DNA from: Fulvivirga imtechensis AK7 | GTDB taxonomy: Bacteria; Bacteroidota; Bacteroidia; Cytophagales; Cyclobacteriaceae | DNA: 64,000 nt | Reading direction: 5' to 3' | Assembly: GCF_000331535.1 (NCBI RefSeq) | Contig: NZ_AMZN01000039.1 | Span: 1 to 64,000 of the forward strand | In this document: in pieces, positions 8,668-11,220 of the stretch | Position numbering within the stretch: the first letter of the stretch is position 1 | How the letters are laid out: every line of letters begins with the position of its first letter | Translations under genes and position numbers: made by a program | The notes under the pieces: generated by a model | The model's database searches: none | Told to the model about the DNA's origin: nothing | Seen by the model: only the letters and a program-made list of their open reading frames with translations

Positions 8668-9582
8668 ATGCCTAAAATGAGGCCTTCATTAAGAATTGCC
8701 ACGATATATTTTATTATTGGCGCTACATGGATTTTATTATCGGATGTGGCTGTAGATACTTTTTTCGATGATAAGCACGTAATACGCGAACTGCAGACAT
8801 ACAAAGGATGGACCTTTGTGGTACTATCAGCGCTGTTAATATTTGCTTTAAGCAGACAGTATGAAAAGCATCTGAATAATAAGATAGCTGAGCTTCGCAA
8901 TGCTAACCAGGACCTGAAGCTATTCTTTTATAAAGCATCACACGACTTAAGAGGGCCTGTCAAATCAATTCTTGGACTTACAGCGCTTATGCAGATGAAC
9001 AGGCATGATAAAGATATGCCGCTAATGGTCACCCATATAGAACAATCAGCCAGAAAAGCCGATCACCTGATATATGACCTTGATCAGTTGACCAATATTA
9101 TCGAAGGGCCTTTACAAACGGCCCCGGTAAATTTCCCGGCCCTGCTAAAAAAAATCTTCGCACGCTTACAAGCGCAAAACCCCGATTTCGCCAACAAAGT
9201 CAACATGGTTAGTCAACTTAATATCAAGGAATGTCAGTCTCATCTTTACCTGCTTGAACTCATCATGGAAAAGCTTTTGGAGAATGCAATTGTATTCACC
9301 GCTCCATATCGTGATTCTCCTGAAGTAGCTGTGTTGATCAATCGCACCAGAGAGGGGTTATCCATAAAGGTTAAAGACAATGGCATAGGCATACATGAAA
9401 GTCGTATGCACCGTATATTTGATATGTTTTACAAAGGCACCGAAGCCTCAAAAGGCAGTGGGCTGGGGCTGCATATAGTGCGTTTGGCAGTAGAGCGACT
9501 GGATGGAAAAGTATTGGTAGATAGTACGGAAAGAATAGGTAGCACCTTCACTGCGCTGATACCACTGACAGATAATTCGTAA
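8668..9582 (+). CDS. Membrane sensor histidine kinase (orphan)
   Basis: A 304-residue kinase with two membrane helices (about residues 9-28 and 47-62) joined by a very short outer loop, then a coiled coil and a HisKA domain with the phosphorylated His at H92 (KASHDLRGPVKS). The HATPase domain shows the N box (LLENAIVFT), G1 (DNGIGI), F box (IFDMFYKG) and G2 (GSGLGLHIV). The N-terminal pattern with WILLSD resembles a short sensor module common at the front of bacterial kinases and cyclases. With almost no periplasmic sensing region it probably senses the membrane or works through a partner. No regulator gene is adjacent, so its partner is unknown. Confidence 0.85.
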   Translation: MPKMRPSLRIATIYFIIGATWILLSDVAVDTFFDDKHVIRELQTYKGWTFVVLSALLIFALSRQYEKHLNNKIAELRNANQDLKLFFYKASHDLRGPVKSILGLTALMQMNRHDKDMPLMVTHIEQSARKADHLIYDLDQLTNIIEGPLQTAPVNFPALLKKIFARLQAQNPDFANKVNMVSQLNIKECQSHLYLLELIMEKLLENAIVFTAPYRDSPEVAVLINRTREGLSIKVKDNGIGIHESRMHRIFDMFYKGTEASKGSGLGLHIVRLAVERLDGKVLVDSTERIGSTFTALIPLTDNS

Positions 9583-9709
9583 AAAGAAGCCGTCCCAAAG
9601 CAGGGACTGCCTGCCTGAGCATGTTTACTTTCAACCTAAACCAAAGTAACAAATGCCAGAAATGACACCCAAAGTGATGGAAATTCTCTGAGCCGGCTTC
9701 AAGATCAGA

Positions 9710-9904
9710 TTATGCTTCGCAGTAATATCCAGAGTCACCACAGCAATGCGTCCAGTAGCCGAATGTAATTACCGTAGGGCATTCATTTTTACCGCATACA
9801 GTTGCTGAAGCTCCACCCATTACCTTTACTGTCTCACTTTGCTTAGTTTCCATTTCGGTAACGAAGCTTTCCACTTTGATCTTTTCGATTTTAAACTTTT
9901 TCAT
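9710..9904 (-). CDS. Lanthipeptide-like RiPP precursor peptide (orphan)
   Basis: The 64-residue peptide has the build of Bacteroidota class I (pinensin-like) lanthipeptide precursors: a charged leader beginning MKKFKIEKIKVESFVTE, in which SFVT matches the usual leader signature, a glycine pair at G30-G31, and a 33-residue core. The core has five cysteines (C37, C42, C54, C55, C62) and six Ser/Thr (S33, T35, T44, T47, T52, S58), enough for several lanthionine rings. It is flanked by a histidine kinase gene and a lipoprotein gene, and no LanB, LanC, LanM, peptidase or ABC exporter is in the window, so modification would have to act in trans. It has its own promoter and an upstream palindrome. 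Class assignment is by motif only; another GG-leader peptide type is possible. Confidence 0.7.
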   Translation of the reverse strand: MKKFKIEKIKVESFVTEMETKQSETVKVMGGASATVCGKNECPTVITFGYWTHCCGDSGYYCEA

Positions 9905-9946
9905 GCGTTTTTAGTTTGGTTTTTAATTGATTTTGATTTTACAAAA

Positions 9947-9975
9947 CAAACCTACTACCAAAAAGCCTAATAAAA
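9947..9975 (-). promoter_or_regulatory. Promoter of the lanthipeptide-like gene
   Basis: On the minus strand TTTT (9972-9975), a 17-nt spacer and TAGGTTTG (9947-9954) match the Bacteroidota consensus TTTG-N17-20-TANNTTTG with one mismatch in the upstream box. The transcript would begin near 9941, giving a leader of nearly 40 nt before the ATG at 9904. Confidence 0.6.
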
Positions 9976-9976
9976 C

Positions 9977-9994
9977 ATCACGGAAAACCGTGAT
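9977..9994. promoter_or_regulatory. Perfect palindrome abutting the promoter (candidate operator)
   Basis: ATCACGG-AAAA-CCGTGAT has two perfect 7-bp arms with a 4-bp centre. It ends one base upstream of the -33 box of the lanthipeptide-like gene, a usual position for an activator or repressor site. It lacks a T-run and is upstream of the predicted transcript, so a terminator role is unlikely. Confidence 0.5.
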
Positions 9995-10302
9995 ATTAGC
10001 AGTTTAAACAGATAACGAGGCGGAGCGATAAGCGCTGAGTGCTGAGGGTAGACATCCATTTTACATTCAATGTGCTTAAGGCAAAAACTTCAGGGATGCT
10101 TTACTAAACTTCTGAAAGTTTGGCAAACCGTACTGTTGAGGAAGTCCGATCAGGCGCTAAGCTTTCCCGGTACTTGACCCGGCGAAGGGCGAAGGGCAGA
10201 GAGCGGAGCGATAGGCGGTTTCATTTAAAATTGTCAGGAACTTCATTTGCTTTTCGGGTTATTTGCTCGAAATTAACCTTTTGAATTTCGATCAACCATA
10301 CC
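9995..10302. other. Intergenic spacer with decayed repeat fragments
   Basis: No gene is seen. Two short copies of GCGGAGCGATA(A/G)GCG occur at about 10020-10034 and 10203-10217, with GCTGAGTGCTGAGGG and GCGAAGGGCGAAGGGC words near them. Related words occur on the other strand at about 61590-61640. They look like worn intergenic repeat sequence. Confidence 0.4.
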
Positions 10303-11220
10303 ATGAGACCTCTATTATTGCTTGCTTTGGCCATTATAATGGCATCATGCAGCACCTTTGTACCGGTGAGTAAGACACTTCCACCTGAAATTCGCTTACC
10401 TGATAACAAGGGAGACTTCCTTTTCATCAGCAGATTCAATGCCGACAGCCTACCTTTTAATAACGATAACAAGGTAGAAGTTTTTAAGCTTGGACATAAT
10501 GCCTTTTTGCAGGGACTTAGTGCCGGCTTTGATACCAGCAGATACTTTCACCTTACCCTGGCTGATACTATTATAGGTAATACAGCGCCCGTAGAACCGG
10601 CTAATGATCTGAGTGCCACACGTGCAGAACAGCTTTGTACGATCCACAATAAAGGGTATCTGCTGACTCTGGATGCATATAATCTTTACTTTGACCAGGA
10701 AGTTGACGTGGTGAAGTTAGAGGATGGCACTAAGGAACGAACGGCCTACTACGACCTGGTGGTGGAGACCTACATCGGGATGTATAACCGATACGGACAG
10801 GTATTGGATCGCTATCGCGATGAGTTGAGGATCCAGCACGATAAAAGGTCTGTGATCAGCGGACTTCTGGCCGTGGGACCATCGATGGGTAAGGCAGACA
10901 AAAATGCCAAGCTCATTTCTGACGAATTGGGCAGGAAGTTCATACACAAATTCTATCCGGTATCAGTTGTTGAACAACGTGAATTTTACCATACCAAAGG
11001 GTTCAGCAGAGCTTACAAGGCATACCAAATGGGCCATTGGGCAGAGGTTGAAAATGAACTTTTACCACTAACCAGATCAGAAGAATCAAAAATAGCAGGC
11101 CGGGCTGCTTACAATATGGCGGTGCTTTGTGAAAACCTCAACCGCCTGGATGAGATGACTTACTGGTATGGAGTAGCGCAAGAGAAGCTGGGTGATAAGA
11201 TGCCGACCTGGTATAATTGA
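10303..11220 (+). CDS. Outer-membrane lipoprotein, DUF6340-like
   Basis: A 305-residue protein with a lipoprotein signal peptide; the lipobox is IMASC with the acylated cysteine at C16. The mature part begins with a short beta-rich domain and ends in helical hairpins (from about residue 225) that look like a degenerate TPR, including YKAYQMGHWAEVENELLPL and AAYNMAVLCENLNRLDEM. The overall pattern resembles Bacteroidota lipoproteins of the DUF6340 group, which have no known function. It converges on trkH with only 10 bp between the stops. Family assignment is from memory and moderate. Confidence 0.65.
   Translation: MRPLLLLALAIIMASCSTFVPVSKTLPPEIRLPDNKGDFLFISRFNADSLPFNNDNKVEVFKLGHNAFLQGLSAGFDTSRYFHLTLADTIIGNTAPVEPANDLSATRAEQLCTIHNKGYLLTLDAYNLYFDQEVDVVKLEDGTKERTAYYDLVVETYIGMYNRYGQVLDRYRDELRIQHDKRSVISGLLAVGPSMGKADKNAKLISDELGRKFIHKFYPVSVVEQREFYHTKGFSRAYKAYQMGHWAEVENELLPLTRSEESKIAGRAAYNMAVLCENLNRLDEMTYWYGVAQEKLGDKMPTWYN

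Follow-up and report, generated by a model that had tools for sequence, protein, structure and literature searches.

Candidate trans modification of a dispersed set of pinensin-type lanthipeptide precursors in Fulvivirga imtechensis AK7

According to Walker et al. (2020; PMC7268733), pinensin biosynthesis relies on a split LanB together with a separate elimination protein, and the LanC of the pinensin group resembles LanM. Pinensin precursors are treated as part of their biosynthetic cluster (PMC9248904). One-enzyme, many-precursor lanthipeptide biosynthesis is known from cyanobacterial class II enzymes: for the prochlorosins (ProcA/ProcM) and SyncA/SyncM of marine picocyanobacteria, a single modifying enzyme goes with many precursors whose genes lie far away from it (PMC7268733), with 29 precursors given for the prochlorosins (PMC12328550) and up to 79 substrates for SyncA (PMC9872173). 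PedA15.2 of Pedobacter lusitanus is described as being cleaved by LahT150, a protease domain for Gly-Gly substrates (PMC12328550). Walker et al. searched seven genes on either side of LanC and state that prochlorosin precursors were missed owing to this limit (PMC7268733). An antiSMASH survey gives two RiPP clusters for Fulvivirga kasyanovii 48LL (PMC12565237).

The stretch analysed here (hereafter the window, 64,000 nt) comprises positions 1-64,000 of contig C39 of the Fulvivirga imtechensis AK7 genome (G000; 6.7 Mb in 225 contigs). A first-pass annotation of its letters had described a 64-residue, pinensin-like lanthipeptide precursor with an SFVT-type leader, a Gly-Gly site and a core containing five Cys and six Ser/Thr. 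All of these elements were recovered in an intact ATG-initiated open reading frame of 64 codons (Table 1), with the Gly-Gly at residues 30-31 and a 33-residue core whose composition would allow (methyl)lanthionines to form. A match of the leader to known precursors had been proposed as a check, and residues 2-31 matched NF038180 (NCBIfam, pinensin family) with 41.4 bits, above the cut-off of 24; the peptide had no match in Pfam. The Gly-Gly site has a counterpart in the C39 protease of an ABC transporter encoded on contig C81. On these features, the window gene is a pinensin-type lanthipeptide precursor gene. A consensus scan also found two terminator-like sites in the region, compared with a mean of 0.7 in shuffled sequences.

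Table 1. Features of the precursor locus, in window coordinates
Feature	Position	Strand	Basis
Pinensin-type class I lanthipeptide precursor gene, 64 aa	9710..9904	-	Open reading frame; NF038180; orthologues; purifying selection
Leader MKKFKIEKIKVESFVTEMETKQSETVKVMGG, with Gly-Gly (predicted C39) site at its end	9812..9904	-	NF038180 match; pattern common to 33 compared rows
Core peptide, 33 aa, motif PTVITFGYWTHCC	9713..9811	-	Composition; conservation of motif and Cys
Promoter-like element TTTT-N17-TAGGTTTG	9947..9975	-	Sequence; TAGGTTTG identical in four orthologues
Inverted repeat, 7-bp arms, 4-nt loop	9977..9994	.	One base from promoter-like element; operator role putative
Terminator-like hairpin, ~100 nt past stop codon	9592..9607	-	Consensus scan only

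Conservation of the peptide in relatives, likewise put forward as a check, was found in three congeners, whose orthologues share 78, 75 and 71% identity with the window peptide. Pairwise whole-gene dN ranged from 0.04 to 0.18 with dS at 0.56 or above, or saturated; whole-gene dN/dS was 0.04-0.08 in the 4/6 orthologue pairs for which it could be computed, and core-only dN/dS was 0.05-0.11 where measurable. The window peptide is thus under strong purifying selection. The five core Cys and the core motif are conserved in the three orthologues (genomes G014, G008 and G001), and a related core motif, [PL]TV[IVL][TS]xG[YI]W[TS]xCC, occurs in G033 and G027, which belong to other genera. When a profile of the window core was searched against 390 sampled genomes of the order, only one weak 12-residue match (E 0.005) was found besides the window itself; the output for this sample contained none of G001, G008, G014, G027 and G033, which were presumably not drawn. 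In G027 (L139:6793-13236), a peptide whose core motif, GYWSHCC, is like that of the window is encoded some 3 kb away from a second LanC. This LanC follows two unassigned genes of 355 and 329 aa, and the only PF04738 match of that genome is elsewhere.

No homologues of the two genes flanking the window gene were found in the stretches examined around the G014, G008 and G001 orthologues. The slot of the G014 orthologue corresponds to contig C49 of F. imtechensis according to both of its neighbour genes (83% and 64% identity), and this C49 slot holds a more diverged paralogue with 54% identity to the window peptide. In G001 and G008, one of those neighbours each was present in the stretch examined. 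These neighbourhoods suggest that the window gene belongs to a small family and has been relocated. Within 9401-10450, a search for exact direct repeats of 12 bases gave none. A functional pairing of the window gene with the adjacent histidine kinase gene was rejected because no kinase homologue was found near the orthologues in the stretches examined.

The window gene is one of many. Searched with NF038180, the genome yielded 31 precursors above the cut-off, distributed over 19 contigs, and the matched stretch was free of internal stops in all of them; five are encoded on C81 and 26 elsewhere. Three weaker matches fell below the cut-off (E up to 1), so that 34 rows were analysed in total. Among 14 control genomes, sub-cut-off matches occurred in four and matches over the cut-off in none. 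For alignment, anchored at SFVT and Gly-Gly, we used 33 rows, leaving out the precursor on contig C9, which has no SFVT; for C15:142488 an early Gly-Gly was taken as the core boundary, and C70:32335 has no ATG start. The S and F of SFVT were invariant across these rows. The first 20 core columns each carried at most 1.2 bits, so cores are hypervariable and leaders conserved. At least two Cys were present in 32/33 cores, the leaders had one Cys in 900 residues, and the core of one C81 precursor had no Cys. The set thus shows the many dispersed precursors, conserved leader and variable core by which a one-enzyme, many-precursor system is recognised.

The proteins flanking the 26 precursors outside C81 were compared with Pfam (at least one direct neighbour per precursor; 34 proteins plus the two beside the window gene), and none matched a LanB, LanC, C39, radical SAM, YcaO or ATP-grasp family. 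The scanned neighbours include a tRNA synthetase, ferritin, MutS, AnmK and two-component proteins. BLAST with the C81 and C9 proteins over the stretches examined revealed a further C39 ABC transporter, encoded at a distance of about 2 kb from a C47 precursor, and, on C50, an ABC protein that lacks a C39 domain. Also on C50, a VKOR and thioredoxin-domain protein (L051:6178-7800) is encoded between a Gly-Gly peptide gene led by a DUF805b RNA and the SFVT precursor C50:37861, 62 nt downstream. Beyond the SFVT family, the genome also encodes short peptides that are Cys-rich or carry a Gly-Gly.

The first-pass annotation had further described a near-consensus promoter and a perfect 18-bp, operator-like palindrome upstream of the gene. 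The promoter-like element was recovered: TAGGTTTG at 9947-9954(-) is separated by 17 nt from TTTT at 9972-9975 and is identical in all four aligned orthologues, whereas the TTTT box is not clearly conserved. A promoter shared by the precursor set was rejected, given that TANNTTTG within 120 nt upstream showed no enrichment (6/34 precursors versus 40/276 background genes). The palindrome is not perfect over 18 bp; it consists of two 7-bp arms around an AAAA loop, and its reading as an operator is weak: inverted repeats of this class (arms of 7, loop of 0-8) occur within 150 nt upstream of 50/274 background genes, so that the window repeat is not notable alone, and of 4/34 precursors. The exact repeat was found once in the window and at no other locus among the 136 searched (two matches being overlapping copies of the window locus); a role as the operator of a shared regulon is therefore unsupported. 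A different short inverted repeat, GTATC-N4-GATAC, lies at about the equivalent place in three orthologues. A start-region motif, AACCAACTAAAA, scored at least 10 of 12 in 8/34 precursors versus 4/276 genes; as it was chosen by eye from those very precursors, the count is a lead and no independent test.

A separate observation concerns the DUF805b RNA (RF02914), for which the genome gave 12 matches (L075-L086), 10 of them over the gathering score, when 150 of 3824 candidates were scored. In eleven cases the element begins 55-64 nt ahead of a gene for a short peptide: five times an SFVT precursor, once the C9 precursor, and five times another peptide of Gly-Gly, Cys-rich or precursor-like kind. 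The remaining match is followed by a long protein. Among 29 loci, each from a different relative, the downstream genes were more mixed (six gave no readable gene), and the element is thus not RiPP-specific in general. As a regulator of the window gene it was rejected, none of the 12 matches being on contig C39.

Matches to PF04738 and PF05147 in the genome are confined to contigs C9 and C81, which carry two LanB and two LanC loci in all. The search for these enzymes that had been suggested for the whole genome therefore succeeded, and the earlier statement that no modifying enzyme or exporter lies within 64 kb held as far as the C81 and C9 enzyme and exporter queries reach, none of which matched a window open reading frame of at least 90 aa at E 1e-8. 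LanB/LanC adjacency is usual for the family, but it is not the basis of the precursor model, and the window precursor has no such match on its contig. Within a stretch of about 19 kb, contig C81 encodes a LanB, an elimination protein and a LanC, along with a C39-peptidase ABC transporter, an HlyD adaptor, two TPR histidine kinases and a LuxR-type response regulator. The LanB (1013 aa) is of the split type, with a PF04738 score of 127 bits, 6ec7 as best PDB sequence match and a protein of F. kasyanovii as best named match (68% identity). The elimination protein has 337 aa and matches PF14028 and TIGR03891. The LanC carries WCHG and LCHG motifs, which we take to be the zinc-ligand regions. The C39 transporter (L045:1774-3966) and its homologues in seven relatives are 81-93% identical, and the LanB proteins of the same loci 47-67%, as if the transporter served more than the lanthipeptide pathway.

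Contig C9 encodes a LanB of the canonical type; its Lant_dehydr_C domain is spread over two overlapping frames (L044:10506-13657), reflecting either a frame break or a sequencing error. The C9 precursor has another type of leader, with sub-cut-off matches to lant_leader_L1b and L1a. Given this canonical LanB and non-SFVT leader, no match for SFVT leaders other than C81 was found in the genome, which accordingly has a single SFVT-associated LanB/LanC locus. Behind the C9 LanB lies a JmjC/cupin-type gene (L044:13658-14761) that runs to the contig end and possibly encodes a tailoring hydroxylase for the C9 lanthipeptide. Elsewhere on C9 (L044:1298-2559), a 325-aa protein that, by eye, looks like an ATP-grasp (graspetide) maturase is encoded downstream of a DUF805b element and a 62-aa Gly-Gly peptide.

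Across 117 genomes, G000 included, LanB (PF04738) was present in 17/17 genomes with a leader over the cut-off versus 12/100 without (Fisher p = 4e-13, kinship ignored). PF05147 was found in 16/17 leader genomes versus 18/100 others, and 31/34 of these genomes were over the family cut-off. The exception, G050, has three precursors, a partial LanB and no LanC match in an assembly of 1300 contigs. The leader genomes hold 31, 22, 1, 1, 1, 14, 1, 1, 19, at least 63 (G027), 19, 7, 6, 3, 40, 1 and 1 precursors, respectively. Where a genome has one precursor only (seven cases), a LanC match is found no more than about 6 kb from it. G014, a single contig with 19 precursors, one LanB and one LanC, is the one genome in which distances between precursors and enzymes are certain, the G000 assembly being in 225 contigs. 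Among the 14 of its 19 precursors that were listed, one lies about 6 kb from the single LanB, and a distance of 0.69 Mb or more separates the other 13 from it. The LanC gene of G014 extends over two overlapping frames (L095:16005-17947), with both CHG motifs in the first, and LanC genes were unbroken in 8/8 other relatives checked; the break may be an error, affect the C-terminal extension only, or mark a dead cyclase.

Within the 390 sampled genomes of the order, the leader family occurred in 14 besides G000, with at most three copies each. This count was based on at most 20 candidates per genome, and G000, with 31 in the genome search, shows at least 20 there. Large dispersed sets thus seem to be uncommon and restricted to this bacterial family. 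A special clade of multi-substrate LanB enzymes was unsupported, as the one-precursor genomes G003 and G006 fall among many-precursor genomes in the LanB tree, which was built without G087 (partial LanB), Fkas (same contig as G001) and G050.

We therefore read the window precursor as a member of a dispersed class I set that would be modified and exported in trans by the C81 enzymes, and give this reading a probability of roughly 0.75. Modification in trans was one of the options first raised for the peptide and is the best supported of them, about thirty sister precursors being scattered in the same way, though it stays putative on sequence grounds. We infer recognition, chemistry and export to proceed as follows. 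Each precursor would be expressed from its own position, and the shared leader, KKxKLxLxxLKVxSFVT...T[VI]KGG, would recruit the one enzyme set encoded on C81. The C81 LanB would glutamylate core Ser/Thr, the separate elimination protein would make the dehydro-residues, and LanC would close thioether rings onto Cys. The C39-peptidase ABC transporter, with the HlyD adaptor, would then cut after Gly-Gly and export the product; since a second C39 transporter lies near the C47 precursor, export need not be by C81 alone. With somewhat less assurance, we lean towards a broader picture in which, in some Fulvivirga and related Bacteroidota, one set of split LanB, elimination protein and LanC plus a C39 exporter serves about 14 to more than 60 precursors, which form a library spread over the genome, each with its own place and its own regulation. 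Such a library would grow by single-gene duplication and relocation, with some members, that of the window included, fixed under purifying selection.

Other explanations of the scattered genes were weighed against this reading. The first-pass annotation had allowed for a remnant, and decay of the window gene after loss of a biosynthetic cluster might be suspected from the missing cluster around it and from its different chromosomal place compared with its orthologues. This option is contradicted by the strong purifying selection on the whole gene and on its core, and likewise by the intact frame, the conserved -7 element and the lack of internal stops throughout the 31 precursors; it is largely refuted and can be considered highly improbable. 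The gene is real and conserved, and no remnant. A more serious contender limits lanthionine modification to the precursors of the C81 locus and has the scattered peptides leave the cell through C39 transporters, unmodified or disulfide-bonded. The genome does have another C39 ABC transporter and further short Gly-Gly/Cys-rich peptides outside the SFVT family, the Cys-rich cores could form disulfides, and the VKOR/thioredoxin-domain protein adjoining the C50:37861 precursor would suit disulfide-bonded peptides. The frame-broken LanC of G014 points the same way, and it lowers our confidence in trans modification and in a class I, prochlorosin-like reading. However, scattered and C81 precursors share one leader, including the SFVT well ahead of the Gly-Gly, and the leader family tracks LanB across genomes; we consider separate handling of the scattered peptides rather improbable.

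The biological role of the product would differ if it were an intercellular signal or another dedicated secreted factor, sensed for instance by the neighbouring histidine kinase, and not part of a chemical arsenal; such a product may still be lanthionine-modified. The good conservation of the window core subtype between species and the adjoining kinase gene speak for a signal, whereas the kinase pairing is not conserved in the stretches examined around the G014, G008 and G001 orthologues and most cores in the genome are unlike one another. We regard this role as unlikely, if a little less so than export without lanthionines.

With modification in trans by the C81 enzymes as the preferred reading, the system can be set beside those described. 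It has the leader family (NF038180) in common with the pinensins of Chitinophaga, in which a Gly-Gly leader also goes with a C39 protease, and the layout of the C81 enzymes is the pinensin arrangement described by Walker et al. (2020; PMC7268733). The LanC of F. kasyanovii is likewise LanM-like, its full length matching TIGR03897 (LanM model) best, below the cut-off. Unlike the clustered pinensin precursors, 26/31 precursors here lie off the enzyme contig. The lanthipeptides of Pedobacter lusitanus (PedA15.2 and others) are also class I products of Bacteroidota. No report of dispersed class I precursors in Bacteroidota was found in the literature searched, a partial set without the primary papers on Pedobacter lusitanus; this is weak evidence, and the priority of the finding is uncertain. 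If the reading is true, cluster-based surveys miss most such precursors; G001, one contig of which agrees fully with F. kasyanovii JCM 16186 across a compared stretch of 7.8 kb, has 22 of them. A natural tRNA-dependent system of class I would also mean that the one-enzyme, many-precursor strategy had a separate origin, and its LanB/LanC enzymes, being tolerant, could serve to make cyclic peptides.

As with the prochlorosins and SyncA, many precursors are encoded remotely from the modifying enzyme. Those systems are class II, with one bifunctional LanM and leaders of the Nif11 family, whereas in the present one, of class I, the LanB, elimination protein and LanC are separate and the leader is of the SFVT type; the PF04738 LanB and the pinensin-type leader set it apart from prochlorosins proper, which are defined by a class II LanM and a Nif11-type leader. 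Trans modification is reported for the prochlorosins and would here follow from the shared leader and the sole matching enzyme set. The simplest account is a class I analogue of the prochlorosin system, in which a shared leader and one enzyme set would serve dispersed, diversifying cores.
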